24,607 nt of DNA from a virus. This document shows positions 3,001 to 24,564 of this stretch, piece by piece. How positions within the stretch are numbered: the first letter of the stretch is position 1; the number at the start of each line of letters is the position of its first letter. Under the pieces are notes generated by a model that had not been told where the DNA came from, did no database searches, and saw only the letters and a program-made list of their open reading frames with translations. The stretch is from the IMG/VR virus record IMGVR_UViG_3300035698_011843, positions 1 to 24,607 of that record. One strand, 5' to 3'. Position numbers and translations under genes: made by a program.

Positions 3001-3541
3001 TAAAATCTCCCATCCCCTGTGTGGAAGAACCAACGCTTTTATTAAAATTATCTACAATTTGTCTAGCGGTTAATCCCTGCTCGCTAAATAATTTAAATCC
3101 GATACCAACGAGGCGTGATGTATCGGCTAAATCAGTTCCTTGCGCAGCCGCCAAATCCATCGCGTCGGCGGCTATGGAGATTGTTTGCGCAGCGTCAAAA
3201 CCAGCGCGTGTTAATTCCTCCATGCCCGCCGCCGCTTGTGTAGCTGTGAAAGCCGTAGTTTCCCCTATGCGCTTGGCTTCCGTTTCAAGTGCTTTAAATT
3301 CTTCAGCGGTAATTTTAGAAATGGACTTTACAATAGACATCTGCTTCGTAAATTCACGCCCTTCTTTAATTACATCGGCGAATGGAGCAGATAACGCGCG
3401 CAAACTTCGGCTAATTAATTCAATACCTTGATTAGCCACGATAATCTGCTTGCCAAATTTATCTAAAACATTCATAAACCCACGTATCGGCTTCGATGCT
3501 TTATCAGCTACGCTTAGAACTACTTGTATGCCTGCGGCCAT
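1..3541 (-). CDS. Tail tape measure protein (3' end cut by window edge)
   Basis: An uninterrupted frame runs from the ATG at 3541 to the left edge: 1180 codons with no stop. It sets tail length and is threaded through the tail tube. Residues about 60-235 resemble the TP901-type tape measure core (PhageMin_Tail), rich in Ala/Thr helices with motifs such as AAAGMEELTRAGFDAAQTI and GTLAGTAFRTAVSN. After that come long alternating hydrophobic and amphipathic helices, then a block of 18-residue repeats near residues 700-800 (units like NSFSGFGTKVKDNFGNIF), then a very hydrophobic Ile/Leu-rich stretch that runs to the edge. The gene starts 3 bases after the chaperone GT frame ends, the usual order in long-tailed phages. 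The TP901 assignment is by remembered pattern; the role is secure from length, composition and position. Confidence 0.9.
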   Translation of the reverse strand, partial: MAAGIQVVLSVADKASKPIRGFMNVLDKFGKQIIVANQGIELISRSLRALSAPFADVIKEGREFTKQMSIVKSISKITAEEFKALETEAKRIGETTAFTATQAAAGMEELTRAGFDAAQTISIAADAMDLAAAQGTDLADTSRLVGIGFKLFSEQGLTARQIVDNFNKSVGSSTQGMGDFIEAFKFAASTASAVNQPLDEVTKTIALLADVGLRGTLAGTAFRTAVSNLLDPTNQMQEVLSDLNLSMEDINPETNKLTDIFKKLNAAGISSKQVFTLFGKEAGSKFIKVIKNINPLLEGYEKKLVKAKTAQESAADSLDNLDGDLTIFGSAMSGLKLEIFDILESSLRAGAKSLTELAKSFTSFVKNNRGLVSDIFNGISASITTFMKFSKSLIFVIADIFKVFKSFSQLEIVHEIFNGLVRVFDNVIKTVVKLSRDIIDFFLPVWNKVKLAFQSVIAVTEPLTKKIIEFAVVIANAVTSNKNIQAAIENVVDIFKFLFETIGPVVSVLIDLAKSIIPPVIDVLGVLFNIISKVIKEALQVFASVIKDLEPIFVGLTQWVSDISKQFSAWLDDALKPIVEFIDGKVIGTLTSLWNGFKDIIGISGGLSGSQKKIADAFKKADEQAAAFDKTLTGNTVTVSLQKTQTELKNTLKPLNDSAVKLSLANNRARALDATLKKLNTVKTITAIDKLSDALDRLGDKLAKVLEETKNRTSTSLNEIGSFFSTEFGNIFNSFSGFGTKVKDNFGNIFSSFSGFGDKIKNEFGNVVKELADVEQTVEKEFAKLPAKVKKELANVEKEFSMLAPKVKGHFGNLGEILKTDLLGFEKEAVFGLPKVNKSFQVIKDTIEEVNKNTKDLEQSSNDAGEALKTAAETADEKLKQTNDTIKKTGETLKDVQKTAKEGIIVDAKIQKTGKDFDFSGIGDFNIKDFFSKNAIRGAGEEFGANVAKQIPGVGGAIQGAQAGGPVGAIVGFFADLLMRTEGFQEAIKILGDALIELMEPLGKLLVPIAKFMAKIIKKLAPFIERIAMAIGKLLDAILPIIESVLEILMPVIELILDIIVAIFEVLGPIFEALKPVFDVITDVLTDLMPLIKILLEPLLFELRVITVIIKTSMVLIKFYGDWMIMQLKFLVVWVRKIVGFIENLVAPILKIIEGAIQGVFDFIKKIFDVVKDILSVIPG

Positions 3542-3543
3542 TT

Positions 3544-3801
3544 TTAACTACTTTTTGAAGATTTTGAAGGCATTTTTTGTTTAATCGCTATTGCGACTTG
3601 TTCTTTAATTAAATTAAAGATTTGAGGAAGATATGCGGGTTGTTCATAATACGATTTATTATCAGGCCAACACCATTGAGTTAAACCGGCGATTCCTTGA
3701 TTATGACATGCATAAAAAACGTTCACCCATGATAATAATGAACGTTCTTTAATTATTGGAATTTCATTAATCGGCAACCCGCGAAGAAACCGCGCTATTG
3801 C
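3544..3801 (-). CDS. Tail assembly chaperone GT extension (-1 frame)
   Basis: This 85-residue frame is probably not translated on its own. It is read after a -1 slip at the AAAAAAG at 3801-3807, giving a 212-residue fusion (127 residues of the G frame plus 85). The frame is open right through the slippery site. Its only local start would be a TTG at 3777 with no Shine-Dalgarno, and that would leave just 77 residues. The sequence has Trp/Cys-rich helices (GIAGLTQWCWPDNKSYY) and a Lys/Ser-rich tail. In lambda-like phages the G and GT proteins bind the tape measure protein and recruit tube subunits during tail assembly. The position, directly between the G frame and the tape measure gene, fits. 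The assignment rests on gene order and the frameshift signal. Confidence 0.8.
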   Translation of the reverse strand, partial: AIARFLRGLPINEIPIIKERSLLSWVNVFYACHNQGIAGLTQWCWPDNKSYYEQPAYLPQIFNLIKEQVAIAIKQKMPSKSSKSS

Positions 3802-3823
3802 TTTTTTGCTTGCTCACTCTCCT
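3780..3823 (-). promoter_or_regulatory. Programmed -1 ribosomal frameshift signal (dnaX-like)
   Basis: Three elements lie in a row on the minus strand. An internal Shine-Dalgarno, AGGAG, is at 3819-3823. After 11 bases comes the slippery heptamer A AAA AAG at 3801-3807, in the correct phase for the G frame (gcA AAA AAG). After 6 bases that include the zero-frame TAG stop (3795-3797) comes a small GC hairpin at 3780-3794 (CGCG, 7-base loop, CGCG). The arrangement matches the E. coli dnaX signal. The hairpin is short, so stimulation may come mostly from the Shine-Dalgarno. Confidence 0.85.
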
Positions 3824-4181
3824 TTTCAGTCAGGTTTGAACCTGTCATCAATGCGCCGATCAATTTTGTTTTCAACGTCAAAAATGCACCTGAATCAATC
3901 GTAAAAATATCTTCAAGCGTTCCATCTCTTAATTTTCCATCTTCTTGAATCTGAAATGTTCCAATCATTTCAACATGGTGAGGGATTATTTCGAGCAAAA
4001 TTTTATCAAGCGCGGGATTGCTAATCATTTGCAATCCAGACGACTGATTATCTTCGCCTTTCATTGACTGATTAGCGAAAGTACCAAGTTTTTCAAGCCC
4101 CGATTGATTCAACGGTTTGATTTTAAACTCGATTCCGTCTAAAATTTCGATGCGAGAATCAAGATTAATTATTAAGGTCAT
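3795..4181 (-). CDS. Tail assembly chaperone G
   Basis: A 128-residue protein between the tail tube gene and the tape measure gene. It starts at an ATG behind an AGGAGT Shine-Dalgarno. It is acidic and helical with no membrane segment. It ends in TAG directly after the frameshift heptamer, which produces the longer GT form. The family role is to chaperone the tape measure protein; G protein is normally absent from the finished virion. If the TAG were read through, the same frame would add only about 14 residues before a TAA. The function is inferred from position and the frameshift architecture, because the sequence itself is poorly conserved in this family. Confidence 0.8.
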   Translation of the reverse strand: MTLIINLDSRIEILDGIEFKIKPLNQSGLEKLGTFANQSMKGEDNQSSGLQMISNPALDKILLEIIPHHVEMIGTFQIQEDGKLRDGTLEDIFTIDSGAFLTLKTKLIGALMTGSNLTEKESEQAKKQ

Positions 4182-4224: not shown

Positions 4225-5196
4225 TTAAATTGGATCGCCATACAGCGGCGCAACGGTATTAACTAGCGTAACTTGGATTGATGTATTGCTAGTTGTACTA
4301 AACAATGCTTGTGCCGTGAACGGAGCTTCGATAATTCCGGGACCGCTTATGCTAGGTTCAACCGATTTAAACTTGATTTTAGGAAAATCAAGAGTTAAAG
4401 CGTTTAGAGAGCTATCGCCAGTCCAATGCATTACTAAAGAATTATTTTGCTGATTAATGAAAGCATCCCAATAGCTATGCTGTTGAAAAATAAAAGTACC
4501 TGCTAATTCAATAGTTTGAAATCCAGTTCTTTTGATTTTATACGGAGTGCTAGACATTTGCAGCGTAAAATTATTTTCAAGATTATTATTAATCGTAACG
4601 GTCATATCTTTGAGGTCCATAACCGCCGCGCCATCAATAGATATACTTGACTGATCCCATCGAAACGGAGCCGCAGTTGGAAATGTCGGACTAGACGCTA
4701 CTTTCTTCGTCATTTCGCCGCCTAGAATGCCTAACGTAGCCGTTAGCAGCTCTCCATTCGCGACGTTCAAAGTAAAAGTATTCCCGCATAAATTGTAATA
4801 AACAGCCGCGCTTCCAACGTCGCGATTAACCTCGATAGTCAGAGGATCAGACGCGCATAATCCGTCAAAATCGGCGGAAGTGCTTTTATAGATATGAGTC
4901 ACTGCACTTGTCACATCGGCAACACTTGTGACGCTTGTACGCAAAGCGGATTTAAAAAAATAATCAAGCGCGGAAGGGCTAGCCTCCATTGTAATGTCAC
5001 CCTCAACTGTGCTCGCTCCATTATAATAGGGAGATTCCGCAAATCTGGCATACATTCCCGCCTCAACTATTTGCTCTTTAGCAAGCGTTATACTCTCTTC
5101 AGTAATTGCAAGTGCTTGCAATGACGCGACATTTGAAGTATTAAAACTTTCCTGAAACGCGAACATCGCATGACCTTTCATTCCATAACCAGCCAT
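4225..5196 (-). CDS. Major tail tube protein
   Basis: A 323-residue protein with a strong GGAGG Shine-Dalgarno ahead of its ATG. It is rich in beta strand, with Thr/Ser/Asn-rich alternation and few long helices. An N-terminal MAGYGMKGHAMFAFQESFNT segment and a two-domain layout resemble the Phage_tube_2 type of tail tube protein, longer than lambda V or SPP1 gp17.1. In the virion it would polymerise into the hollow tube around the tape measure. It lies just upstream of the chaperone pair and tape measure gene, the standard order. The family assignment is by remembered pattern; the tail tube role is well supported by order and composition. Confidence 0.8.
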   Translation of the reverse strand: MAGYGMKGHAMFAFQESFNTSNVASLQALAITEESITLAKEQIVEAGMYARFAESPYYNGASTVEGDITMEASPSALDYFFKSALRTSVTSVADVTSAVTHIYKSTSADFDGLCASDPLTIEVNRDVGSAAVYYNLCGNTFTLNVANGELLTATLGILGGEMTKKVASSPTFPTAAPFRWDQSSISIDGAAVMDLKDMTVTINNNLENNFTLQMSSTPYKIKRTGFQTIELAGTFIFQQHSYWDAFINQQNNSLVMHWTGDSSLNALTLDFPKIKFKSVEPSISGPGIIEAPFTAQALFSTTSNTSIQVTLVNTVAPLYGDPI

Positions 5197-5625: not shown

Positions 5626-5794
5626 TTTCTACCTCTTCTTTATTAGTTTTAGCAATAGGTTGAATTAAACATGCGCTTAACAACCGTTTTTTTATAACGT
5701 CGTCTCTAATTGTAACCGGCTCATTATTGACGACATAACCGCATAAAGGATTAAAGCCGGACGGTCCTTTCCAGAGAAAGTTTATTTGTTTCAT
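5576..5794 (-). CDS. Small conserved-type tail-region protein
   Basis: A 72-residue protein. Its first part (KGPSGFNPLCGYVVNNEPV, then an acidic helix) follows a pattern often seen in small phage proteins encoded between the tail terminator and tube genes, whose function I do not know. The C-terminal 25 residues are Glu/Lys-rich and probably disordered. There is no good Shine-Dalgarno before the ATG, and the upstream flank carries the promoter of the divergent gene at 5882. The 3' end overlaps the next gene by 50 bases. It is kept as a gene because of its operon position and that N-terminal pattern; the exact start is uncertain. Confidence 0.55.
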   Translation of the reverse strand: MKQINFLWKGPSGFNPLCGYVVNNEPVTIRDDVIKKRLLSACLIQPIAKTNKEEVENAGREKEAGETVEDGS

Positions 5795-5801
5795 TTTTTC
5801 G

Positions 5802-5830
5802 TTGACAGAAAGATTTTAAAAATTAATACT
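5802..5830 (+). promoter_or_regulatory. Putative promoter for the antisense gene at 5882
   Basis: A perfect -35 TTGACA (5802-5807) preceded by a T-rich run, a 17-base spacer, and a -10-like AATACT (5825-5830, four of six matches). It reads rightward against the late operon and overlaps the start of the minus-strand gene at 5794. Upstream context (T-run, then C, then TTGACAGA) resembles the element at 7708-7725. Confidence 0.5.
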
Positions 5831-5881
5831 GATGTTAACAATTCATTAAATGAAATCATAAAATTCAAAAAAGCAAATAAT

Positions 5882-6106
5882 ATGGCTCCATTAGTACCTG
5901 TAATTGTAGGAGAAATAATAAAAAAAGTTTTCCGCCGCGACAAAAAACGAGACAATAAAAATTTAAAATATCAACTAACTCATTATATTCATCAATTACA
6001 ATCAGATTCGCAATCGTTTAAAAATTTTTCACACGATTATGAAGATGGTTATCTAGATGCATGTGAATCTATTAAAAATGAAGTTAACAAAATATTTACA
6101 AATTAA
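5882..6106 (+). CDS. Small antisense accessory protein (moron), unknown
   Basis: A 74-residue protein from the ATG at 5882, the only ATG in frame downstream of the predicted transcription start. The same frame is open from 5786, but that longer start lies upstream of the promoter -35 and is unlikely. It begins with a hydrophobic stretch (MAPLVPVIVGEIIKKVFRR) running into a very basic patch, followed by a helix with aromatic and acidic residues. It has no convincing Shine-Dalgarno. It runs opposite to all neighbours and ends tail-to-tail with the tail terminator gene, sharing the palindromic TTAA. The amphipathic N-terminus could touch the membrane or a partner protein. I do not recognise a family. 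Confidence 0.6.
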   Translation: MAPLVPVIVGEIIKKVFRRDKKRDNKNLKYQLTHYIHQLQSDSQSFKNFSHDYEDGYLDACESIKNEVNKIFTN

Positions 6107-6552
6107 GCGAAAGCCTCTGCCGTAAACGTTAATTCACTCATCAAGAAATCATCACTTTGATTTTGATCTCTATTTAGTGGCGACATAGTAAAGTCAGTCA
6201 CCATTAAAACCGTATTATCAAGCGTTCTGTTGCTATTTATGGCCGTCCAAACATTATCGCGTAAATCGTTTAATTCTCGTATTGACAAGAATTGCTGCTC
6301 AATGTTTTCATAATTTTGAACTTGAACCTCAATTGTTACGCTAATTTCCTGTTTCCACGGTTGCGATATATTAGCGCGATGACCATTGATATTTATGTTT
6401 GGATCAAGTACATTGATCCAATATAGCGTATTATTTGGGTTTGTATTAGTAATCGCGTATTGTTCAACCACTACACCGCAATTAACAAGCGTTTGATTGC
6501 TTGAAAGCGTTGTAAATACTGAATTCATTACATAATTAGTATGAATTGTCAT
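6103..6552 (-). CDS. Tail terminator / minor tail protein
   Basis: A 149-residue protein with no Cys-rich or membrane segment. It has the mixed alpha/beta pattern of tail terminator proteins: an N-terminal helix, an extended strand with aromatic residues (NTLYWINVLDPN), a polar segment (WKQEISVTIEVQVQN), a helix (LRDNVWTAINSNRTL), and a final strand set (LMSELTFTAEAFA). Such proteins cap the tail tube and form the joint with the head. It follows the gpG-like gene and precedes the tube genes, the expected slot. The start is an ATG with only a weak AGAG upstream. The assignment is by order and length rather than a diagnostic motif. Confidence 0.6.
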   Translation of the reverse strand: MTIHTNYVMNSVFTTLSSNQTLVNCGVVVEQYAITNTNPNNTLYWINVLDPNININGHRANISQPWKQEISVTIEVQVQNYENIEQQFLSIRELNDLRDNVWTAINSNRTLDNTVLMVTDFTMSPLNRDQNQSDDFLMSELTFTAEAFA

Positions 6553-7707: not shown

Positions 7708-7725
7708 TTAATTATTTTCTTGACA
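7708..7725 (+). repeat. 18-base element shared by two antisense genes, copy 1
   Basis: TTAATTATTTTCTTGACA, identical to 22870-22887. It ends in a consensus -35 hexamer and precedes the plus-strand gene at 7804. No good -10 lies at the usual distance (TATATT at 7748 leaves a 22-base spacer), so at this copy its promoter role is less clear than at the other. Confidence 0.7.
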
Positions 7726-7751
7726 GATCAGCCGCTATTCGAAAAACTATA

Positions 7752-7780
7752 TTTAACAAATCGCAATAACGCGATAATAC
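7752..7780 (+). promoter_or_regulatory. Weak alternative promoter for the gene at 7804
   Basis: TTTAAC (7752-7757), a 17-base spacer and TAATAC (7775-7780) would start transcription just before the Shine-Dalgarno at 7791. Both boxes are imperfect, so this is a candidate only. Confidence 0.25.
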
Positions 7781-7803
7781 TCAACATAAGAAAGGAGTCT
7801 AAT

Positions 7804-8025
7804 ATGACATCTAAGTTGATTGGCGTTTTAATCGCACTCAGTATTTCCGGCATAATTGGCGCGTTTGCATGGCCATATATACTTAATTCCTGGCTGCTAT
7901 TTTTAGGAAAATCAGCCGTAGTTCAATGGTGGCAAGGATTTCTTATGGGATATGTCCCGTTTATTGGCCAATTTGCGCTGCCACTTGCCATGCTGACATG
8001 GATTATTATGTTAATACTTGTCTAA
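7804..8025 (+). CDS. Small antisense membrane protein (moron)
   Basis: A 73-residue integral membrane protein. The ATG at 7804 sits 6 bases after a strong AAAGGAG (7791-7797). The frame is open further upstream to 7720, but that would start inside the shared 18-mer and lacks a Shine-Dalgarno. Hydrophobic segments lie at about residues 4-26 and 50-73, with an aromatic, amphipathic stretch between (VVQWWQGFLMGYVPF). It runs against the late operon and its 3' end overlaps the end of the endolysin gene by 20 bases. It could be a holin, since it lies beside the lysis genes, but its opposite strand and separate promoter element fit an accessory function such as superinfection exclusion better. I do not recognise the family. 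Confidence 0.7.
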   Translation: MTSKLIGVLIALSISGIIGAFAWPYILNSWLLFLGKSAVVQWWQGFLMGYVPFIGQFALPLAMLTWIIMLILV

Positions 8026-9181: not shown

Positions 9182-12127
9182 TTATAAATATTGCGCATCA
9201 TTTTCAAAAACGGCTAAATTTTCATCCGTCATCAGATTCATAAGAGCTTTCAAGTCTTCTTTATTCTCTACCTTCCCTTCAACAGTCGTCATATCATTGC
9301 CATGCATTAAATTTAACTTATCTATTTTAACCCCGAACTTAAATGAATATCCGCCTGTGCCATTTGTAAGAAAATTAACCGTATTCGACACATATATTAA
9401 TGAATCCAAAACAAACCTAACTTGTTTTAATTCTATAATTTTTCGCCAGCCGCTTAATATTTGCTGACATCGGGCAAGCATTTCCGCCGATATTCGTTTG
9501 GTTTGTTCAAACTCGAATCGATTTAAATGGTCCAAATCGCGAATAGCCAACGCTCTTCCTAAAAACCTTTCGGGGTATTTCTGCATATCCCTAACCATTA
9601 GCGGCCAGTTTCTTTGAAATCTATTTCTTCTGATCGATTCGCTTTCATATCCAACATGCATAATTGCCGCGACATTGGACGGGACAATATATGTTTCTCC
9701 AGTTCCTTTATTAAGCCCCGTTTCAGGATGTTCATGAACGCATCCATAAAATCGGATTCCTTTGTAATTCCTAAATAACCGGCAAGGAAGATCGGTTTTA
9801 GTCAATCCCGCTGGTTCGGCACTAAAATGATGCTGATGAGTCGCGTATGCATTAAAATGGTTATCCCTTAAATATAGATTTATTTTATCAGGCCATACCC
9901 ATGTTTCGTCGTCGTCAATCCATAAAATCCAATCGCGAGTAGCTTTGGCAATCGTTGTATTTCTGGCTTCGTCGAAACCGATTTCAAGCGGACTATCATT
10001 TTCAAAAACATGCGCATTTGGAAATTCAGACGCTATTCGATACGTCAAACAATCTTCTACCTTTGCTCCATTAAGAGATTTTTTGTCTATCGCTATAATA
10101 AATTCATCGACAAACGGCTGGATTGATTGCAATGTTTTTTGGATACTTCCACAATCAGCTTTAGTGATCAAGCATGCGGAAACTTCTTGATCTGGATTTT
10201 GAAATTTAATTTTTCGCAGATAGTTTATATCTCCAAAATCATTGTTTTCATCTCTGGCCCAATCCCACATATAAAATCCAAATTTATCGCTGCTCTGATC
10301 TGGATGATTGAGATATAAAATTTCTTTCCCCCGCTTATGCCCGATTATGTCTTCAATATCGGATGATTCATACTGATGCAAATGTTGCCGCTTGTACGGA
10401 TAGCGATCAAACGATAATGCTTCCCACGGACCCCACGGAGTAGTAATAGACAGTTTGCCGCCTATTTTTACCGCTTGTTCAAGATTAATTAGGAATTGTT
10501 TATAATCCCATATATGTTCTAAAACTTCGGCACAAATTATGGCGTCGTATTTATCTTTTTCAAGTTCGTTTGGATTATTGCATTCAAATAATTTGATGTT
10601 TTTTAACCCGTTATCAGCAATAAATTTATTCCCGATATCAACCTGTTTCGAGTCAATATCGCATCCTTCGAACACTAAATCCGTAAAAACAGACGCTAAC
10701 GCCGTAGTAACATGACCTACGCAACAACCATATTCCAATACTATGCTTCCCGGCTCTAACTTAGCCATTTTTTCAATTAGCGGTCGAATACGCGGGATAT
10801 TCAACGTCATAGCATAATTCCCAAGCCCATGATTATCGCCGCTTTGATTAATATGGTATTCAGCCATTTCAGCGTAAAAATCTTTCGTATCAGGCAATGA
10901 AGAAAAAGCCGTTTGATACATATTTTTCAGGAACTTATCTTGTCCTAGATTTGATTTTTCATTCAAAAAACTAGCCGCCGCAACGTCTGAATTATATATA
11001 AAATGCTGGAAAAGCCGCATTTTATTATTTGTCAACCGATCAAAATCATCATGTATTAATGATTCAAATTTATCCACGGTATTAACAATATCATACTGTT
11101 TGGATTTCGCTATCGCCTTATAATATAATTCATCATATTTAGCTGTATTTTTCTGTAAATACATAATGGAATTAACGAATTCAGGTATTGACGACCAGAA
11201 AACACCACCATCTTTCAACGTTTCTGGTAAAGCAGCCGTTTTAGTAGTGAGGAACGGCGTCCCTGCCGTTTGTTCTTCCATAGCTGTGATGCAACTCACT
11301 TCCTCGAATTCGGTCGGATAAACGTGAAGCCATGCGTTTTTCATGATTTCCGCTAACTCCTGCTTGCTTAAATATCCATAATTGCGGACGTTCGGTAATG
11401 CCTGACATCGTTGATATAACTGTTGATATAATGGAGCAGACTGCGGAGTTACGTTATCGTATCCAGTCACAACTAAAGTTATTTCAGGATCGATTTGCAA
11501 CAGTTTTTCCATGATGCCGTTTTCGCCAACTAAATGCACAAGTCCGCGTTCAGGTCTTGAGCTATAAAGCAGCATCTTGTTTTGTTTTTTATACTCCAAC
11601 TCGCCAGCCACGCACAATTCAGAATCAACGCCATTCGGAATAAAATCAATATAATTCTCTCCAACGCCATATATTTTTTTGACTTGATCGACGTGAAATT
11701 GAGAAACGCCAAGTATTTTATTGACGTTCCACATCATTGAATTTATTTGCGGATGCCAGCGTTTCAAAGCAAGATCATGCGTCCAAAAATAATTCAACTT
11801 GGAATTATAATGCGCATTGAATATACCAGACGCCCTTTGAGCCAAAATCACATCGCAAGGGATATTTAATGCGTATTTCTGAAACTCATCTCCGAATGGC
11901 GACTGTTGATCGCATTTACCTATAGGCATATAATCAACGTTATCAACCGTGACCATTCGAGGAGCATTGCAAAAACATTTGACATCATGACCACGTTTGG
12001 CTAGCTCTCTAGCGACGTAATAGCCCATCGTTTCTGACCCGCCTAGAGACTTTCCCTGATTGATCGTATTTCCGTCAAACGGAAGCCCCATAACGTAAAC
12101 TATAATATTTAGTTTATTTTTTTTCAT
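9182..12127 (-). CDS. Trifunctional GT4 - methyltransferase - GT2 fusion
   Basis: A 981-residue cytoplasmic enzyme with three domains. Residues 1-345 are a GT4-type glycosyltransferase: GGSETMGYY at 29-37, SSRPERG at 189-195 and an intact EX7E motif (E276 and E284). Residues about 440-610 are a class I SAM-dependent methyltransferase: motif I VLEYGCCVGH at 463-472, then YDAIICAEVLEHI. Residues 648-860 are a GT2-type transferase with the nucleotide-sugar motif WILWIDDDETW (acidic triplet at 738-740). The linker near 370-405 (LFQHFIYNSDVAA) is also found in the neighbouring 614-residue protein, so the two are paralogues. It would build and methylate a short glycan. It has no Shine-Dalgarno but an ATAAAT just before the ATG. 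Acceptor unknown. Confidence 0.85.
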   Translation of the reverse strand: MKKNKLNIIVYVMGLPFDGNTINQGKSLGGSETMGYYVARELAKRGHDVKCFCNAPRMVTVDNVDYMPIGKCDQQSPFGDEFQKYALNIPCDVILAQRASGIFNAHYNSKLNYFWTHDLALKRWHPQINSMMWNVNKILGVSQFHVDQVKKIYGVGENYIDFIPNGVDSELCVAGELEYKKQNKMLLYSSRPERGLVHLVGENGIMEKLLQIDPEITLVVTGYDNVTPQSAPLYQQLYQRCQALPNVRNYGYLSKQELAEIMKNAWLHVYPTEFEEVSCITAMEEQTAGTPFLTTKTAALPETLKDGGVFWSSIPEFVNSIMYLQKNTAKYDELYYKAIAKSKQYDIVNTVDKFESLIHDDFDRLTNNKMRLFQHFIYNSDVAAASFLNEKSNLGQDKFLKNMYQTAFSSLPDTKDFYAEMAEYHINQSGDNHGLGNYAMTLNIPRIRPLIEKMAKLEPGSIVLEYGCCVGHVTTALASVFTDLVFEGCDIDSKQVDIGNKFIADNGLKNIKLFECNNPNELEKDKYDAIICAEVLEHIWDYKQFLINLEQAVKIGGKLSITTPWGPWEALSFDRYPYKRQHLHQYESSDIEDIIGHKRGKEILYLNHPDQSSDKFGFYMWDWARDENNDFGDINYLRKIKFQNPDQEVSACLITKADCGSIQKTLQSIQPFVDEFIIAIDKKSLNGAKVEDCLTYRIASEFPNAHVFENDSPLEIGFDEARNTTIAKATRDWILWIDDDETWVWPDKINLYLRDNHFNAYATHQHHFSAEPAGLTKTDLPCRLFRNYKGIRFYGCVHEHPETGLNKGTGETYIVPSNVAAIMHVGYESESIRRNRFQRNWPLMVRDMQKYPERFLGRALAIRDLDHLNRFEFEQTKRISAEMLARCQQILSGWRKIIELKQVRFVLDSLIYVSNTVNFLTNGTGGYSFKFGVKIDKLNLMHGNDMTTVEGKVENKEDLKALMNLMTDENLAVFENDAQYL

Positions 12128-12152
12128 ATTTATATTTTAAAATTCATATTGG

Positions 12153-12422
12153 TTAATCTGATATTTCAATTTCGCGAAAAAATATAATCTTCTCTTGCGC
12201 GTCCTTAAATATACTCAACAACTCATGCAAATCTATATTTGTATACTCTTCTTTTTTATCATGAAATTTTAACGGAATTTCCGACCCATGCAGGGTAGCA
12301 TTTTTGCTATCGGCTTTAAATAAAGCTTTAATTGCATTTTGATATATTTTAGTGCAATAAGTAATATTAAAAAATACCCCTTCAGATGTCACACCTTGTC
12401 GGCCTACAATATATATATTCAT
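12153..12422 (-). CDS. Unknown 89-residue protein of the sugar cassette
   Basis: An 89-residue protein packed 2 bases after the dehydratase stop and 25 bases before the large fusion enzyme. It begins MNIYIVGRQGVTSEGV, followed by a helix with Lys and Tyr, and ends in two acidic-basic helices. There is no membrane segment or recognised motif. The leader before the ATG is AAATAAAT, the same AT-rich type as at the two transferase genes, which supports it being a genuine member of the cassette. The function is unknown. Confidence 0.6.
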   Translation of the reverse strand: MNIYIVGRQGVTSEGVFFNITYCTKIYQNAIKALFKADSKNATLHGSEIPLKFHDKKEEYTNIDLHELLSIFKDAQEKIIFFREIEISD

Positions 12423-12424
12423 AT

Positions 12425-13447
12425 TTATTTAGATAATCTTTTCATATCGGCATTAAGCATAATTGCTACTAATTCAGGAAATAAAACTTTCGGTTTCCAT
12501 CCGCTAAGATTGCTGATTCCTTTTAAATATTTTACTTCGCTAGGCCGATAAAACTCAGGAGAAACGTCAATAATAATAGCCCCTGTTTTTGAATCAAATC
12601 CTTTGATGTCTTTTCCTTCTCCTTTCCATTCAAGAGGGATTTCAGCTATATTACATGCGCAATTAATAAATTCTTTAATTGAATGCGTTTCACCAGTTGC
12701 GATAATGATGTCTACAGGTTTTTCATCATGCAACATCATCCACATTGCTTCAACATATTCAGGAGCATACCCCCAATCTCTGCAAGCGTCAATATTCCCT
12801 AAAGTTAACTTATCGGCTAATCCTAACTTGATTTTAACAAGCCCGTCAGTGATTTTCCTGGTTACGAAATCAAGACCGCGTAGAGGTGACTCATGATTAA
12901 ATAAAATCCCACAACATGCGAATAAATTATATGATTCTCGGTAGTTTATCGTTACATGATGCGCGAATAATTTAGCTACCGCGTAAGGGCTTCTAGGGTT
13001 AAACTTAGTATCTTCGCATTGCGCTATTCCATTTTTTTCATACTCATTATATGAGTCTCCAAACATCTCTGAAGTTGACGCCTGATAAAATTTAGTGTCC
13101 GGGCTAAATAACCTAATAGCCTCAAGTAAATTCAACGTTCCAATCGCGTTTACTTGCGATGTTGCGAGTGGCTGATCAAACGATGCTTTTACAAAACTTT
13201 GCGCGGCTAAATTATATACCTCGTCTGGTTTTATTTTTCGAACTACATCTATGATTCTTGGCAACTCCAATAAATCCATATAGATTAATTCTACTTCATC
13301 TTTAATGCCTAAATAATTTAGCCGCCAATAATCGCCATCTCCATTGCGTCTGTCAGAACCATAGACTATATATCCTTTGTCTAATAGCAATCTTGCTAAA
13401 TAAGCACCATCTTGTCCTCTAATTCCAGTTATAAGTGCCGTTTTCAT
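12425..13447 (-). CDS. gmd: GDP-mannose 4,6-dehydratase
   Basis: A 340-residue short-chain dehydrogenase/reductase that converts GDP-D-mannose to GDP-4-keto-6-deoxy-D-mannose, precursor of deoxysugars such as fucose and rhamnose. The NADP-binding motif TGIRGQDGAYLA starts at residue 7. The catalytic set is present: STSEMFG (Thr/Glu) and the SPYAVAK Tyr-Lys pair. NHESPLRG and DWGYAPEYVEAMW are hallmark GMD segments. It is slightly shorter than the usual 350-370 residues. Its ATG overlaps the TGA of the upstream transferase (ATGA), so it is coupled. No reductase (fcl or rmd type) follows in the window, so the next step must come from the host or from outside the window. Confidence 0.93.
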   Translation of the reverse strand: MKTALITGIRGQDGAYLARLLLDKGYIVYGSDRRNGDGDYWRLNYLGIKDEVELIYMDLLELPRIIDVVRKIKPDEVYNLAAQSFVKASFDQPLATSQVNAIGTLNLLEAIRLFSPDTKFYQASTSEMFGDSYNEYEKNGIAQCEDTKFNPRSPYAVAKLFAHHVTINYRESYNLFACCGILFNHESPLRGLDFVTRKITDGLVKIKLGLADKLTLGNIDACRDWGYAPEYVEAMWMMLHDEKPVDIIIATGETHSIKEFINCACNIAEIPLEWKGEGKDIKGFDSKTGAIIIDVSPEFYRPSEVKYLKGISNLSGWKPKVLFPELVAIMLNADMKRLSK

Positions 13448-15288
13448 ACACTTTGCTCTTTAAACTTACGCTCATAATTAATTTCGCCAATCATCATATT
13501 ATCTTTCGACTTAGTCCACATCCATAAATAATTAGCCACGGGAATATTTTTAATCGGATAAGTAGGGATATGAATAATTTTAAAGTTATCTTTATGCCCA
13601 ACTATTTCCAATATGTCTTCATGCTCATAATGATGAATATGTTCTCTAACTAAATCAGCGTTATCAAAAGATATTGACTCTAACGCGCCGCTTGGAGTGG
13701 TTATAATTATTTTGCCACCTTTTTTAGTAGCATTTTCAAGCCCTTCTAAAAGTTCTTTATATTCCAGAATATGTTCTAGCGTTTCAGTGCAAATAATCGC
13801 GTCGTATTTATCAGACTCAATTTTCAAAGGATCGTTGCACTCGAAATAAGAAACATTTTTAATTTGTTCTTTTTCTATATATTCATTGGCTATTTTCAAC
13901 TTAACGGGGCTAATATCCGCGCCTTCAAATTGTAAAAGCGGGAATTGATTTGCCATCAACACGGTTATTTCACCCGCGCTGCATCCATAATCAAGAACTA
14001 ATGACCCAGGTTTTAAATCACTAATTTCATTAATTATATGGCGCACTCTAGGAAATCGCATCAATCTTTCAATATCGCCTAAATTTTTAAACGCTTGTTT
14101 TTTGTCGCTATCAATCGCAATTGAATCTTGTATTTCTTTCGTCGCGGTATATTTTTTATATATAGTCGGATAGTTATCTTGCAAAAATTTATCTTTCCCT
14201 AGACTATATTTATCGTTTAGTTTTTGCGCAGATATAACGTCTGAATAATATATAAAATGATTAAAAAGTTTCTCTTTATCTTTCGGCTCTTGAACGCTTG
14301 GAAAAAGCTCTGAAATCCAATATTTCTCTATAACGTCTCTCCATGCCATAGCTTTTGAGTAAATGCCTTTTTCATGCGCTACAACGTCATTTCCTTTAAT
14401 AAAATTAACATACGGTATATAATCGCCGACCGTTTCTTTTAACGCTCCTAATTTATTGACTATGGGAGTACATTCACAATATTGAGCTTTTACCGCGTTC
14501 AGACAAAATAACTCCGAATCTGGATTATTAAGCGGCAAAATCCAATATTCAGCTTTCCAATATTCTTGCTCTATTTCATCGCGTCTTAATGATCCTAAAT
14601 ATTCAATTCCATCCTGTTTTAGCAAGTCCGTAATCTGATTTTTAAAACGTCTAAGCTGGAAATTTTTAAAATTAAAATTATTCCATCCGTAAGCAACTTT
14701 TAGTGTTAATCTAGGATAATGCTTTTTGATCGTTTTCCAGTCAGTCAGCAATTGAAATAATCCACGGTCAGGCGAACTACAATATAAAATAGTTCCTGAA
14801 ACTTTATCGACTTTATTTTTATCAAGCGATTCTATATCAACTCCAAGCGGGGATGCATGACTTTTTTTATGCGGCACAAAAACATTTTTTCGTTTTTGAT
14901 AATTAGATATATTAACGAAAGCATCTATCGCGTTTATATTTAATTTTTTTGACTGCTCATTAGTACCCCAACTTTGCTCGATATCAGCCGTCCAATGAAT
15001 ACTCGTCGCCGCTTTCGCCGATTTTACCCAAGGAGTATTATCTTTCCATGTAATGAAAATATTATCTGATTCACAAGTAGCGTTTTTTCTGTCTTCATAT
15101 TTTACGCCGTTATATTCCTTCTCACCCTGAATGCGCGAAGAGTGATACACCGTGACGTCGAATTTTAGCTTGACTAGTTCTTTGGCGAACAATACAATTG
15201 CTTCTTCCGAACCTCCAAGAAAGTTTTCTAAATCCGTTGGCTCCCACGATGGAACAACTTCGTTAGTAAAAATTTTAACTTTTCTCAT
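13444..15288 (-). CDS. Bifunctional GT4 - methyltransferase fusion
   Basis: A 614-residue protein, first gene of the sugar cassette. Residues 1-315 are a GT4-type glycosyltransferase (GGSEEA at 25-30, SSPDRG at 171-176). The residues matching the EX7E motif are E259 and K267, so the second Glu is replaced. Residues about 405-560 are a class I SAM methyltransferase: VLDYGCSAGE at 431-440 and YDAIICTETLEHI at 495-507. It matches the first two domains of the 981-residue protein, including the linker LFNHFIYYSDV, and is a diverged paralogue lacking the GT2 domain. It starts at an ATG after AAATAAAT with no Shine-Dalgarno, about 40 bases downstream of its own promoter. Confidence 0.85.
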   Translation of the reverse strand: MRKVKIFTNEVVPSWEPTDLENFLGGSEEAIVLFAKELVKLKFDVTVYHSSRIQGEKEYNGVKYEDRKNATCESDNIFITWKDNTPWVKSAKAATSIHWTADIEQSWGTNEQSKKLNINAIDAFVNISNYQKRKNVFVPHKKSHASPLGVDIESLDKNKVDKVSGTILYCSSPDRGLFQLLTDWKTIKKHYPRLTLKVAYGWNNFNFKNFQLRRFKNQITDLLKQDGIEYLGSLRRDEIEQEYWKAEYWILPLNNPDSELFCLNAVKAQYCECTPIVNKLGALKETVGDYIPYVNFIKGNDVVAHEKGIYSKAMAWRDVIEKYWISELFPSVQEPKDKEKLFNHFIYYSDVISAQKLNDKYSLGKDKFLQDNYPTIYKKYTATKEIQDSIAIDSDKKQAFKNLGDIERLMRFPRVRHIINEISDLKPGSLVLDYGCSAGEITVLMANQFPLLQFEGADISPVKLKIANEYIEKEQIKNVSYFECNDPLKIESDKYDAIICTETLEHILEYKELLEGLENATKKGGKIIITTPSGALESISFDNADLVREHIHHYEHEDILEIVGHKDNFKIIHIPTYPIKNIPVANYLWMWTKSKDNMMIGEINYERKFKEQSV

Positions 15289-19688: not shown

Positions 19689-22028
19689 TTAACGAAAGCC
19701 TACAGCGGGCTTGACTGATTTAACTATACGCGACTCCTTCCAAGTGTCTAGAATCGTTACTGGAATTAGTACGCTTCGGCAGCTCATATGATTAGCCGGC
19801 GTTATTGAACTCCATATTTGGTTGTCAATTTTGAACCGTCTACCATCATACGTTCTACAAAATACAGTCGTTCTATTATCCATAATCGCTGAATATTCCA
19901 ATCCTTCTACAAAATCGCCTAATGCTGGATCGGTATATGTCGCAAGTTGAGCCTGAACAAAAATATTCGTAATATTTGTTCTAGCTATTGTTGCCCATCT
20001 AGCATCGCCAAAACGACCATTAATCTGTTCTTCTAAATCCGTTATAATCGCTGTAATGCTTTTTTCGTCCTTAATGCCTTCAACTAACGCTCTATGAACT
20101 AATTCTCGCTCATCATCAGTTAAATCTTTAGTCCCCATGAACGCCTCTGAATTCAGATAATTTTCAGCGACCTCCAATGAAATCCCATCGACAAAATTTA
20201 ATACAGTCCATTTGTCAGATACGCAAGCCATCTCTTTACTTGTAGCCGATGCGAATTTAATGCGATCTTGAATTTCTTTAGGCTGATCTATAACCGATTC
20301 TTTTAATGAATCTTGCCCCGCTTTTCTTCCCGCTTTATATGCAAAACCCAAATTCGATTTAAAAACCTGTCTTAATTCACCCATCAAGTTTTTAGTCGGG
20401 AACTTTTCGAGTTTTAAGACAATACCTTCATAATCTATTTTGTTTTTATCTTTTGGTAGATTTTTATAAATTATTCGCATTTGCTTTTTGAATTCAGCGA
20501 ATATTTTATTATTTACCTTGCTTAAATCATTAGCGAACCCGGCTTCTAAATTATCGAACGTTTTCTCTATCTGAACGAAATCAAGTCGATTAGTTAAGTC
20601 CGTTTGCTTTTGATCATCATCTTGAAATTCAAGATGCCTGTGATCGCAATCTAGATGATTTAAGTCTATTTTTTTTTTACCTTTCGCTTCTATCTCGTCT
20701 TCTTCAATATCAGTGTCAACGTCTTCATCTGCTTCTCTTTGAGGGTATTTTAATAATTGTCTCGTTCTATTTTCGTCGTCAACCGTATTAACTACCGCTT
20801 GTTCTTTCGTTGCCGTTATCCATGCATTTGCGGACGCTCGTTTTTGATCATCGGTTAGCTCGTCAAATCGAAAACGCGGATAACTTTTTACACCAAAATT
20901 CCACCATGCCAATTGAGAAAAAAGCTGCTCGTTTAATATTTCGGCAAGGGTATCGGCTTGCTCCGTTAAAATCTGCATGAAAACTTCAAATTGAATTTTC
21001 GCTTGCGCTTGACTTCCAGCTTGTTTTTGTTCTGTAAATCCCATCAGATTTGGAACTAATAGCCCCTTGCTGATTTCTCGGTTTTTCTGCTGAACCGCGT
21101 TTTCGAAAGCATCCGTATCCGTGCCGTTTACTATGTCTATATTATAGCCCATAGGAGCTTTAATGCTTGTCGATTTTGTTATATTATTTAATATTCTCTT
21201 GAAATCAGCATTTTCATTAGGAGCTAAATTAACCGCTTTTTCAGTCGGATTTGCAACGACGAAACCTCCTGCGATACGCTCAATCCATATGTTCTGAAAT
21301 CTTAGAATTATATCTTTTTCCCAATATGATCTATAAACCGATCTTAACTCAGACTCTCCCCATACCGGATCAATGTCGGGTTTATTTACGTATATAATGA
21401 ACTTTCGCGGATCGAGAGATTTACTTAATCCGTCAATATCTTGTTTGATTTCAACAATGTCTCCGAAATCATTGATTTTATAGTTAAAAGACCAATACGG
21501 TTTTTTCTTAATTTGCGTCAAAATCCATCGTTCTTTTCCATCTATTTCCGTAACGCCAAAAACTTTCTCGGACACAGAAAAACCTTGCGCTTTCCCTATT
21601 AAAATAGTTCTTAACGCTTGCATCCATGACCCTTTCAACAAAGCGTTGATATTCAGCTCGAAAAATTCTATAATCTCATCTTGAATTGGTTCTTCAGATT
21701 GTTTCTCGAAAAACGAACTTCTCGAAATAATCATATTTATCAGGGTATCATACGACGCTTTTATTTGCGGATCGCGAAGCATTTTGACATAGATGTCATA
21801 ACCTTTTTTGGCAGCAAGTTCATCAGGATTATACGCTTGAAAATCAGAGAACAAAGACAAAAATACTGAATCGCCAGACAACGCGATTTCGTTCGCGGTT
21901 GGCTTCATTTCTATTTGCTTTTGCCGCTTTTGACGATCTATTTCAACTCTCTCAACAAAAGTAATTTGTTGATTGGGCTGATGATTTAGTTTTTTATTTA
22001 AAGTCCGCCAGTCGAAATTTTCAAACAT
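19689..22028 (-). CDS. Portal - MuF head morphogenesis fusion
   Basis: A 779-residue protein. Residues about 40-420 resemble the Mu gp29-like (DUF935) portal: LRDPQIKASYDTLINMI, KPYWSFNYK, PRKFIIYVNKPDIDPVWGES, and KGLLVPNLMGFTEQKQAGSQ. The portal forms the vertex ring through which DNA is packaged. An acidic linker (READEDVDTDIEEDE) follows. Residues about 590-760 are a MuF domain: ARTNI at 682, MDNRTTVFC at 716-724, and PANHMSCRS at 744-752 with the conserved His and Cys. These are usually two adjacent genes and here are one chain. The start ATG shares one base with the TAA of the terminase C-part (TAATG), and an AGAGG lies 9 bases upstream. Confidence 0.85.
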   Translation of the reverse strand: MFENFDWRTLNKKLNHQPNQQITFVERVEIDRQKRQKQIEMKPTANEIALSGDSVFLSLFSDFQAYNPDELAAKKGYDIYVKMLRDPQIKASYDTLINMIISRSSFFEKQSEEPIQDEIIEFFELNINALLKGSWMQALRTILIGKAQGFSVSEKVFGVTEIDGKERWILTQIKKKPYWSFNYKINDFGDIVEIKQDIDGLSKSLDPRKFIIYVNKPDIDPVWGESELRSVYRSYWEKDIILRFQNIWIERIAGGFVVANPTEKAVNLAPNENADFKRILNNITKSTSIKAPMGYNIDIVNGTDTDAFENAVQQKNREISKGLLVPNLMGFTEQKQAGSQAQAKIQFEVFMQILTEQADTLAEILNEQLFSQLAWWNFGVKSYPRFRFDELTDDQKRASANAWITATKEQAVVNTVDDENRTRQLLKYPQREADEDVDTDIEEDEIEAKGKKKIDLNHLDCDHRHLEFQDDDQKQTDLTNRLDFVQIEKTFDNLEAGFANDLSKVNNKIFAEFKKQMRIIYKNLPKDKNKIDYEGIVLKLEKFPTKNLMGELRQVFKSNLGFAYKAGRKAGQDSLKESVIDQPKEIQDRIKFASATSKEMACVSDKWTVLNFVDGISLEVAENYLNSEAFMGTKDLTDDERELVHRALVEGIKDEKSITAIITDLEEQINGRFGDARWATIARTNITNIFVQAQLATYTDPALGDFVEGLEYSAIMDNRTTVFCRTYDGRRFKIDNQIWSSITPANHMSCRSVLIPVTILDTWKESRIVKSVKPAVGFR

Positions 22029-22864
22029 TAAAATAATCCTCTTTCGATGTCATGATAATCAGACATTGTCCCGTCAATCGAATAATCAAGTTCTGAATTA
22101 GTAGTGCGTTTTTCGATAATTTCATCAATGGCGTCATCATCTTGATTCTCGAAGTGTGCGCCAAGAGATATTATTTCTATAGCGTCAGTCATGCAATCCG
22201 CTTGATCATCGTTTTTATGAGTGTCTAACGGCGTTATTTTTCGTATTTCTTCTTTAAAATCAAATAAAAATTCAGCATCAATCGGTAAATAAACAAGTCC
22301 GCTAGCAATTGCAGGAGTAACGTTGAAAAACCTAATGACTTTAGATATATGCCGTTGTACCGCAATGATCGGAAAATTACCTTTTCTTCCAATCTGCTGA
22401 ATAAGAGAAGTTCCTGAAACTTTGTCCTCGACGAACATCCCTCTTAAAATTCCCTGCGCTTTTACATGTTTATTCCAAAATGCAATCGCTTGAATTTCAA
22501 GTTCGGGGGCTTCAATCTTATCCCTATATTGATCGATTAAAAACGCTTGATTTCCAACAGCCCCCCATAGTTGGAATACGCTGAAATCGTTAACCTCTTT
22601 ATCTTTTTGCGCCGTATCCGCCGTTATGATTCTATAATCGAACGTCGGCAACATCTCGTAATATTTCCACCAATCAATCTTGAATATCGCGCCGCCAGCT
22701 GGTGACGGGCTTTGCATATATTGTCCGTTGAATACGTGCGGATCGGTAGTCCGCATCACTTCAAGCTCTTCTACCGTGTGTTTATATTCCCACAACGCGC
22801 CTGACTTTAGATTATGTTCAATCGGTATCGCGTGAGAATATCTTTGTTTTTCAGCCACTTGCAA
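22028..22864 (-). CDS. Large terminase, C-terminal nuclease part (split gene)
   Basis: A 278-codon frame carrying the nuclease half of the large terminase. From AEKQRYSHAIPIEHN onward it matches the family region that normally follows LPALID directly. Visible parts are FNGQYMQSPSPAGG at 45-58, RIITADTA with Asp83, FVEDKVSGTSL with Glu146/Asp147, and HKNDDQADCMTDA with Asp219, Asp220 and Asp227, which together form an RNase H-like metal site for cutting concatemers. The first possible codons are TTG (22864) and GTG (22858); neither has a Shine-Dalgarno, and the upstream DNA is the promoter of an antisense gene. How this half is translated is unclear. It overlaps the portal start by one base. 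Confidence 0.8.
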   Translation of the reverse strand: MQVAEKQRYSHAIPIEHNLKSGALWEYKHTVEELEVMRTTDPHVFNGQYMQSPSPAGGAIFKIDWWKYYEMLPTFDYRIITADTAQKDKEVNDFSVFQLWGAVGNQAFLIDQYRDKIEAPELEIQAIAFWNKHVKAQGILRGMFVEDKVSGTSLIQQIGRKGNFPIIAVQRHISKVIRFFNVTPAIASGLVYLPIDAEFLFDFKEEIRKITPLDTHKNDDQADCMTDAIEIISLGAHFENQDDDAIDEIIEKRTTNSELDYSIDGTMSDYHDIERGLF

Positions 22865-22869
22865 ATAAT

Positions 22870-22887
22870 TTAATTATTTTCTTGACA
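22870..22887 (+). repeat. 18-base element shared by two antisense genes, copy 2
   Basis: TTAATTATTTTCTTGACA, identical to 7708-7725. Here it ends in the -35 box of a good promoter and lies at the very edge of the split terminase gene. Confidence 0.75.
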
Positions 22888-22909
22888 ACTATCCGCATCC
22901 ATATAGAAT
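22882..22909 (+). promoter_or_regulatory. Promoter of the gene inside the terminase
   Basis: TTGACA (22882-22887), a 16-base spacer and TAGAAT (22904-22909, one mismatch to TATAAT). It drives the 96-residue gene at 22957 and reads against the late operon. Confidence 0.65.
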
Positions 22910-22956
22910 AGGTATCAACAACATCGCGAAACTAAAAACAATAAACGGAGAACAGC

Positions 22957-23247
22957 ATGGAACTAACCGCAACGCCAAGAGAAATCAACAAACACAACCC
23001 GCGCCAAGACGGATGGAATATCTTACGCAAAAATCTGATAGTTTTCGGAGATAAATACCCAAGCGACGAACGACCGCGCAAGGCTATTGAAGCCGTTGAA
23101 AATTGGATTAATGATCCAAATGAAGATAATTTGATGATTGCCGCTGCTGATGCCGTTAACGCCGCTACCGCCGCCATTAAAGCCGCTAATAATCGAGACG
23201 CGGAGTTGATCGCTCAGACCGAAATCATCAAAAACCACTTGTCTTAA
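22957..23247 (+). CDS. Antisense gene splitting the terminase, Imm5-like motif
   Basis: A 96-residue protein from the ATG at 22957, 6 bases after GGAG (22947-22950), with its own promoter. The central segment SDERPRKAIEAVENW (36-50) matches the pattern RPRxAIEAxxxW found in Imm5-like/putative immunity proteins, and the following Ala-rich helices (MIAAADAVNAATAAIKAANN) fit the helical repeats of that group. The N-terminal part (QDGWNILRKNLIVFGDKYP) is also helical. It is much shorter than a full immunity protein. It lies between the two halves of the large terminase on the opposite strand. A role in immunity or exclusion is inference from one motif and from its moron-like setting. No membrane segment. 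Confidence 0.7.
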   Translation: MELTATPREINKHNPRQDGWNILRKNLIVFGDKYPSDERPRKAIEAVENWINDPNEDNLMIAAADAVNAATAAIKAANNRDAELIAQTEIIKNHLS

Positions 23248-23263
23248 TTTACTTAACGAATAA

Positions 23264-24004
23264 TCAATCAATCAAAGCTGGTAAACATAAATGATGCCAT
23301 AGTTCACCACTACCGCCATTCAGAAGAAACCCTGATAAATCATCTTCATGAATGCGCTGCATGATCACGATAATGGGAGTCTTTCTGGCTTCCATTAATC
23401 TACTCATGACTGAATGATTGAATCTGTCATTTACCTTTTTTCTTACCGTATCCGAATATGCATCTTCAATTTTAATTGGATCATCAATGATAAACGCGCC
23501 ATGAAATCCTTTTCCCGGTTTTCCCGCTCTAAATCCGGTAACTTGACCACCAGACGCCACCGCATATAATCCGCCGCCATTAATAATATTCCAACGTTTT
23601 TTAGATTTCATGTCCGGCCTGATTTCAGTCGGCCACAAAAACTGATATTCGTCAGATTCGACAATATCTTTGATCGCCGTCGAATTTAAAAGAGCTAAGT
23701 CGTCTGAATAGCTTGAATGAATAAAGCGACAATTTTTGTTTTTAGCTAACGACCAGGATATAAACGCGATTACGGCAAGCTGCGTTTTAGAAAAGCCAGG
23801 AGGTATATTAACAATAAGTCTTTGTATCTCTCCGTTATATACCCGTTCAAGCGCATTGCAAATTAGCTCATGATGCGGATTGATAAAGAACTTATGCCTT
23901 TCTTGATGCTTGAAAAAAAACCGTTGAAACCTTAATAAGCTAGACTCAAGTTGCGGTTTAAGAACAGCCGGATTATGCTTTTTGAAAATTTCCATCCCGA
24001 CCAC
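23264..24004 (-). CDS. Large terminase, N-terminal ATPase part (split gene)
   Basis: A 246-codon frame carrying the ATPase motor half of the large terminase. The Walker A variant NIPPGFSKT is at 66-74, Walker B GAFIIDDP at 169-176 with Asp174/Asp175, and the coupling segment IVIMQRIHEDDLSG at 212-225. It ends in LPALID and then TGA; the nuclease half resumes about 400 bases further on. The start may be GTG (24004) or the ATG three codons later; the upstream TAA is 1 base away. It powers DNA translocation through the portal. Without the nuclease half it could pump but not cut, so the phage must supply both parts. Confidence 0.85.
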   Translation of the reverse strand: MVGMEIFKKHNPAVLKPQLESSLLRFQRFFFKHQERHKFFINPHHELICNALERVYNGEIQRLIVNIPPGFSKTQLAVIAFISWSLAKNKNCRFIHSSYSDDLALLNSTAIKDIVESDEYQFLWPTEIRPDMKSKKRWNIINGGGLYAVASGGQVTGFRAGKPGKGFHGAFIIDDPIKIEDAYSDTVRKKVNDRFNHSVMSRLMEARKTPIIVIMQRIHEDDLSGFLLNGGSGELWHHLCLPALID

Positions 24005-24005
24005 A

Positions 24006-24191
24006 TTAGACAGTTTTTAGTCCTTCCCAATTTATAACAACTTCTTGTCGATTGTCATACCATTTTGTGTGCATCCCGCAATAGCTGCAAATAATTCTAA
24101 ACTGTTGCTTTTGAGATATTTTAGCTAATGGATTATCAACTACTATTCTTGCTTGCTTCCCGCAATTGCAATCATATTTAAAAGTCTTCAT
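24006..24191 (-). CDS. Small zinc-ribbon protein, Lar/Com-like
   Basis: A 61-residue protein overlapping the end of the small terminase by 14 bases. It carries CNCG (Cys8, Cys10) and CSYCG (Cys35, Cys38), a four-cysteine zinc ribbon, followed by a polar segment and VINWEGL. The layout recalls small phage zinc-ribbon proteins such as Lar (restriction alleviation) or Com. The first knuckle is C-x-C rather than C-x2-C. Its place between the two terminase subunits may be accidental, or it may assist packaging or DNA protection. The assignment to Lar is tentative. Confidence 0.6.
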   Translation of the reverse strand: MKTFKYDCNCGKQARIVVDNPLAKISQKQQFRIICSYCGMHTKWYDNRQEVVINWEGLKTV

Positions 24192-24564
24192 CGAAAGCTT
24201 TTCTAGCGTTTTCCGCCTCTTCCGCCGTTAGTTTGGGGAACCTATGCTCATGCTTTTGTTCACCGCCAATATCTATTTGATCTCGCCAACCAAAATTATT
24301 TTTTAGGTTGAACACCACCCCCGATGATATTTTAGGAGTAAGCAATTCTTTTTCCCATGACTCTTCTACAATCGCCTTCGCTTTAGCTAGAATGTCGCCA
24401 AATTTTTCTTTTCTGCGATAATTTACAACAGACATTCTGCTCATATCAAGAGCAAGTCCTAGCCCACTCATGGTATAGCATTTTCCAACATTGTCTGCAA
24501 AATATTTATCAATAACCGCTTGCATTTCTTCCGGCGTTTCAAATTTTAGTGGTCTTCCACGCAT
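24178..24564 (-). CDS. Small terminase subunit (gp3-like)
   Basis: A 128-residue DNA-packaging protein resembling the gp3/Sf6-type small terminase. It starts MRGRPLKFETPEEMQAVIDK, continues with a helix-turn-helix region (SGLGLALDMSRMSVVNYRR) and ends with the family phrase VFNLKNNFGWRDQ, followed by an acidic tail. It recognises the pac site and recruits the large subunit. It is the first visible gene of the late operon. No Shine-Dalgarno precedes the ATG (the upstream bases are A/T-rich), and a promoter may lie beyond the right edge. Confidence 0.85.
   Translation of the reverse strand: MRGRPLKFETPEEMQAVIDKYFADNVGKCYTMSGLGLALDMSRMSVVNYRRKEKFGDILAKAKAIVEESWEKELLTPKISSGVVFNLKNNFGWRDQIDIGGEQKHEHRFPKLTAEEAENARKAFDEDF

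Follow-up and report, generated by a model that had tools for sequence, protein, structure and literature searches.

Tailed phages are recognised and classified above all by the gene for the large terminase subunit (TerL), and the motor and nuclease of this enzyme are assumed to be coupled in cis within a single polypeptide. We analysed a virus record of 24,607 nucleotides (IMG/VR record IMGVR_UViG_3300035698_011843; "the window" below is this whole 24.6-kb stretch), with phage late genes on its minus strand, in which the large terminase is divided between an ATPase gene and a nuclease gene with a small antisense gene in the slot between them. Split genes have been described in T4-like phages, namely Aeh1 nrdA (with mobE), gene 43A/43B of phages 25 and 44RR, and the T4 topoisomerase genes 60 and 39; in phage 25, gene 43 may already have been split when the element entered it (PMC2988022). 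In herpesviruses, the antisense genes UL16 and UL17 lie between the two exons of the UL15 terminase gene, and the content of this gap varies among herpesvirus groups (PMC3079670), whereas the terL gene of phage ICP1 is an intron case (PMC10448857). In the papers searched we found no account of a phage TerL divided between two genes, of its recurrence or of such a slot, which is not proof of absence. From the comparisons below we conclude that the window very probably carries a working large terminase of two genes and two subunits, with an intergenic gap open to exchangeable cassettes of a promoter and an open reading frame (ORF).

The two terminase genes and their relatives

The ATPase (motor) half, gene 1 (23264 to 23995, minus strand), ends with the C-terminus LPALID and a TGA stop at 23264-23266; its start is likely ATG 23995, which aligns with MDIFKRHNP of a relative, with GTG 24004 as the alternative. 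The frame of the nuclease half, gene 2 (22028 to 22858, minus strand), opens at TTG 22864 or GTG 22858, of which GTG 22858 is favoured because two relatives, L130 and L132, carry GTG at the same codon; its stop overlaps the portal ATG (TAATG). Between the genes lies the slot of 405 nt (22859 to 23263). The ORFs, the stop and a gap of about 400 bases are as given in a preliminary description made from the sequence alone. Each half matched its own half-length family as well as the full-length phrog_38: the ATPase half gave phrog_4758 (E 1e-66) and phrog_38 (E 6e-61), and the nuclease half gave phrog_38 (E 2e-48), TIGR01630 (E 2e-22), Terminase_6C (E 3e-9) and phrog_5573. PHROG 4758 (ATPase-length, 243) and PHROG 5573 (nuclease-length, 250) both carry the annotation terminase large subunit, which suggests that phage collections already contain terminase genes of half size.

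The catalytic motifs were present in both halves, as the preliminary description had observed. Walker A (PPGFSKT), Walker B (IIDDP) and the MQR coupling motif of the ATPase half all fell in invariant alignment columns; the nuclease half retained the invariant acidic residues D81, E144, D217, D218, D221 and D225 and has the features of an RNase H-like domain; and every residue invariant among 24 homologues was kept in the two window halves. The predicted model of the ATPase half (pLDDT 90) resembled the solved PhiV-1 terminase, T4 gp17 and HK97 TerL, and that of the nuclease half, of low confidence over its first 60 residues, resembled the solved nuclease domains of D6E, G20c, RB49 and SPP1. 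Since the models match separate solved ATPase and nuclease domains, the split sits at the domain linker.

Eight relatives (L002, L131, L140, L188, L130, L132, L151 and L224; these loci are metagenome contigs) share the breakpoint of the window, with the common pattern ...LP.xI(D)-stop / M..Y[ST]HAIPIEHN. Together with the window they formed a clade in trees (support 89-90), within which the window, L002, L131 and L132 were grouped at 100%, and in the window and in 8/8 of these relatives the two domains are encoded by two genes rather than in one polypeptide. Four of the eight have no insert. In L002, the closest relative by TerL (80% and 70% identity for the two halves), the slot is empty and the junction reads ...LPALID-TAG-CT-ATG-AAA..., a 2-nt gap with the halves in different frames; in L131, part of a 104-kb contig, the gap is 11 nt; and in L140 and L188 the stop and start codons overlap by 4 nt (GTGA). 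As the break falls at this codon even where nothing is inserted, the split predates the antisense gene. The touching or overlapping codons also make it probable that the nuclease was at first translated by coupling to the ATPase gene. The preliminary description had remarked that the nuclease half has no Shine-Dalgarno sequence and only TTG or GTG starts. This is true; however, no clade member has a good Shine-Dalgarno sequence before its nuclease start (duplex energy -2.4 to +1.7), and about one third of the window genes likewise lack one.

Between the window and L130, both with a cassette in the slot, the nuclease half gave a ratio of nonsynonymous to synonymous differences (pN/pS) of 0.20, with synonymous sites saturated; differences occurred at 54% of third versus 15% of second codon positions. 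Purifying selection acts on both terminase genes, and the low ratio between two cassette-bearing loci indicates that selection has maintained the nuclease gene while the slot was filled, a reading that holds if the cassette came from the common ancestor of the window and L130, as their shared block suggests. The retained residues and the selection support continued use of the two halves, in the simplest case as an enzyme of two subunits.

A further 40 loci are split some 30 residues downstream of this breakpoint. Their ATPase gene continues to YTHGIPI..NGIL.ALHGG..YAF-stop and overlaps the ATG of the nuclease gene, which is often preceded by a Shine-Dalgarno-like GGAGG. These loci formed one clade (100%), and intact relatives including KPP23 fell between the two split groups. 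With eight members of the window clade, a single origin of both split clades was rejected by the approximately unbiased (AU) test (p-AU 0.0038); we rely on this test rather than on an earlier one that had only two window-clade members and did not reject a single origin (p 0.59). The differing breakpoints also speak for two separate fission events. From the trees and breakpoints, the second clade apparently split nearby on its own, and the two origins appear independent. Two members of this clade have genes in the gap between the halves: L011 has an HNH endonuclease gene (4375-4899; phrog_99, E 6e-76), possibly a homing nuclease inside an already split gene, and L015 has three small lysis-like genes (5794-6407), the first with a weak Rz-like spanin match and the others resembling a lipoprotein and a membrane protein. 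The conserved tail of the ATPase half, INGIL.ALHGG..YAF, seen in L065 (5700-5804) and 39 similar loci, may serve to dock the nuclease subunit.

Among the close matches examined, no isolated phage had a split TerL; it was intact in KPP23, Haboob, mEp021, Fyn8, BgManors32, Geezett, LPKP33, MEW1, XM1, SL25, MR14 and tonnikala. Two loci that looked split at first, L148 and L189, proved intact. Three other observations were made on these loci. Escherichia phage BUCT618 (L100, 800-3169) encodes a 789-aa TerL with a large in-frame insertion, possibly an intein, inside its ATPase domain; in Cronobacter phage ENT47670 (L086, about 2480-3960) terL is unannotated though ATPase-domain coding sequence is present; and in Pseudomonas phage Fyn8 (L085, 2238-3608) the gene at the portal position is annotated as anti-CBASS Acb1-like, probably a misannotation, as the same-sized Haboob gene is called portal.

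The slot and its occupants

The plus-strand gene with promoter and Shine-Dalgarno sequence that the preliminary description had placed in the gap was recovered. Its ORF (22957 to 23247) encodes 96 aa with no assigned function, and is preceded by a promoter, TTGACA-16-TAGAAT (22882-22909, 11/12 consensus matches; -35 at 22882-22887, -10 at 22904-22909), directed away from the nuclease gene, and by a leader (AACAACATCGCGAAAC..., 22910 to 22956) common to other cassettes, with GGAG at 22947-22950. The promoter region (22870 to 22909) begins with an 18-nt box, TTAATTATTTTCTTGACA (22870-22887), found twice in the window versus 0.13 expected (with up to three mismatches), each time before a small plus-strand ORF lodged among late genes. 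The second cassette (7708 to 8025) has an identical box at 7708-7725 and an ORF at 7804-8025 for a 73-aa membrane protein. The box also precedes oppositely oriented small ORFs in L002 and in L117, the latter with a leader similar to that of the window slot, giving four cassettes in all. Of 26 exact matches of the box elsewhere, most look like chance, and the 104-kb relative contained no match to a strict cassette pattern, CTTGACA-N12-17-TANAATAG. A third plus-strand ORF among the late genes of the window (5786-6106) has a promoter-like site, TTGACA-17-AATACT, and no family match.

Other relatives have other occupants. The slot of L130 and L132 is 365 nt with an antisense 90-aa ORF unrelated to that of the window, that of L224 is a 364-nt stretch, and that of L151 is 1484 nt with three antisense ORFs preceded by ACGGAG and a promoter-like site (TTGACA...TATTAT) adjoining the nuclease start. 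The occupants had no core sequence in common, and what they shared was limited to an opposite-strand promoter and leader. In the window and L130 these lie in 81 nt at 78% identity that span nuclease start, promoter and leader, while the ORFs do not align. As L130 and L132 are separate assemblies from different metagenomes and show the same architecture, misassembly of the window, which the preliminary description had considered, is unlikely.

The 104-kb genome of L131 contains a homologue of the L130 slot ORF (39%, E 2e-12) about 20 kb away from its terminase genes. From this and the recurrence of the box, the occupant looks like a cassette of phage accessory genes that can change its site. 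For the window ORF, the matches were weak (Imm5_like PF21805, E 3.5e-5, below its cut-off; phrog_38757, E 4.5e-5); there was no match in PADLOC or NCBIfam or to nuclease families, and no homologue in viral contigs, phage or plasmid records, or six related records. The signs of selection on this ORF are its promoter, ribosome site and weak family matches only. A search for target-site duplications or transposon ends at the slot gave only short repeats at chance level.

The trees of the two halves disagreed. In the ATPase-half tree, L132 paired with L131 (100/99) and the window with L002 (95/92), and a pairing of L132 with the window was rejected (p 0.0005); in the nuclease-half tree, L132 paired with the window (98/95), and a pairing with L131 was rejected (p 0.048). 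The window and L130/L132 have promoter, leader and nuclease gene in common but derive their slot ORFs and ATPase halves from separate lineages, which makes the slot a site of recombination. The simplest reading of the conflicting trees and of the shared and unshared blocks is that a crossover occurred inside the cassette, and a reassortment of motor and nuclease genes between lineages is indicated.

Alternative explanations and proposed mechanism

The preliminary description had the terminase "cut in two" by the antisense gene. An insertion into an intact terL would account for a junction that loses almost no coding sequence and for intact homologues, such as L014 and Pseudomonas phage KPP23, in which the halves join directly, both as that description had stated. 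However, the break lies at this point, with the halves in a different frame, in L002, L131, L140 and L188 as well, all of them without an insert, which refutes such a cut for this clade and leaves it highly improbable. That description had also named, as what would refute it, relatives in which the two genes are always separate; the split relatives without an insert come close to this. It had further proposed that the halves are still used, either as two subunits or after removal of the insert from RNA. The first of these stands, as above; the second, by which a self-splicing intron or other RNA removal restores a full-length mRNA as in the terL of ICP1 or Bastillevirinae, we regard as extremely improbable. 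Introns in terL are real in other phages (PMC10448857, PMC11878797), and the halves of the window happen to share a frame. Against this, Rfam gave no group I or II intron match at the gathering or a permissive threshold, the occupants share no core sequence, and the empty relatives, with gaps of 2, 11 or -4 nt, have nothing to splice; the halves are in different frames in 7/7 relatives compared, so that in the empty ones splicing would restore nothing.

The window nuclease half might instead be a decaying remnant, with packaging by another nuclease or a defective phage. The GTG start without a Shine-Dalgarno sequence and an H216N change beside the catalytic aspartates agree with decay, as does a comparison with L002 in which 13 of 17 informative differences in the nuclease half (13:4) lay on the window side, versus 6/13 in the ATPase half; this excess is a borderline hint of relaxed constraint. 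The remnant explanation is nevertheless improbable: every invariant catalytic residue is kept, the frame is open over 276 codons, purifying selection is seen relative to L130, which bears the same cassette, and the arrangement recurs in two other metagenomes (L130 and L132). Besides the window-side excess, several points weigh against a working two-subunit enzyme with an exchangeable slot. An occupied slot removes the coupling, and as the nuclease start lacks both a Shine-Dalgarno sequence and a known promoter, expression of the nuclease is unexplained. No terminator was found on the plus strand after 23247, the mosaic test on the nuclease side was marginal, and assembly of the halves is inferred. 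Without a visible terminator, the antisense transcript would read into the ATPase gene; a regulatory role for this read-through is speculation.

For the two-subunit terminase we propose that fission in the interdomain linker, in an ancestor of the clade, would have given adjacent ATPase-motor and RNase H-like nuclease genes, at first with the touching or overlapping codons still seen in relatives. The gap would later have begun to receive small antisense cassettes, each made up of a sigma-70-like promoter, a leader and an ORF; in the window and L130/L132 the predicted promoter lies directly beside the nuclease start, and the ORF points toward the ATPase gene. Recombination inside the slot would then swap cassette ORFs and flanking terminase halves between lineages, as the conflicting trees indicate. 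Presumably the two proteins come together on the portal to form a single complex of motor and nuclease, and the antisense gene is probably an accessory gene expressed while the late operon is silent. A bolder extension, which we consider rather unlikely, is that a split TerL with exchangeable subunits is an evolved, recurrent packaging-motor design, and that the slot is both a recombination joint for reassortment of motor and nuclease and a switch, the latter because the slot promoter would drive transcription against the ATPase gene during dormancy.

Neighbouring genes and comparison with known systems

The minus-strand late genes comprise the small terminase (24178 to 24564; GP3_package, E 1e-17; phrog_606), a Lar-like Zn protein, the two terminase halves, a portal/Mu F-like fusion, a protease, the major head protein and tail genes. 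Next after the nuclease gene, the portal is fused to the Mu F-like head domain in one 779-aa protein (19689 to 22028, minus strand; Portal_Mu, E 3e-43; Phage_Mu_F, E 1e-13); in L130 and L132 an extra gene for a 126-aa membrane protein lies between nuclease gene and portal. Within the structural operon, positions 9182-15288 encode glycosyltransferase/methyltransferase proteins of 981 and 614 aa and a nucleotide-sugar epimerase.

Clades with separate domain genes, apparently of two origins, offer natural material on whether translocation and cutting need a covalent link. Half-terminases are also easily mis-annotated.

Morons are accessory genes, each under its own promoter, that sit among the late genes of a phage. 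The slot cassette resembles them in having, by sequence, its own promoter and translation start, in its opposite strand and in its variable presence at one site, being absent from this site in the close relatives L002 and L131; it differs in that no terminator was found and in that promoter and leader are common to several cassettes of the phage itself. Like the T4-like genes in pieces, whose products work as two polypeptides, the locus presents an essential enzyme as two genes with an element between, and the insert entered a gene already split, as may also have happened in phage 25. The T4-like gaps differ in that they hold sense-strand homing endonucleases or untranslated sequence, whereas the window gap holds an antisense promoter-ORF cassette without a nuclease domain; L011 of the second split clade is the only locus with an endonuclease gene in the gap. 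An intron-interrupted terL, as in ICP1, differs from this locus, which has no Rfam intron match and whose insert-free relatives lack a continuous frame. The UL15 locus likewise consists of two pieces of terminase coding sequence that enclose antisense genes. Splicing of UL15 yields a single mRNA and a single protein, whereas here the empty relatives are unspliceable and the break is at a domain boundary. A packaging gene can host an exchangeable antisense gene slot, as an unspliced parallel to the herpesvirus UL15 locus.

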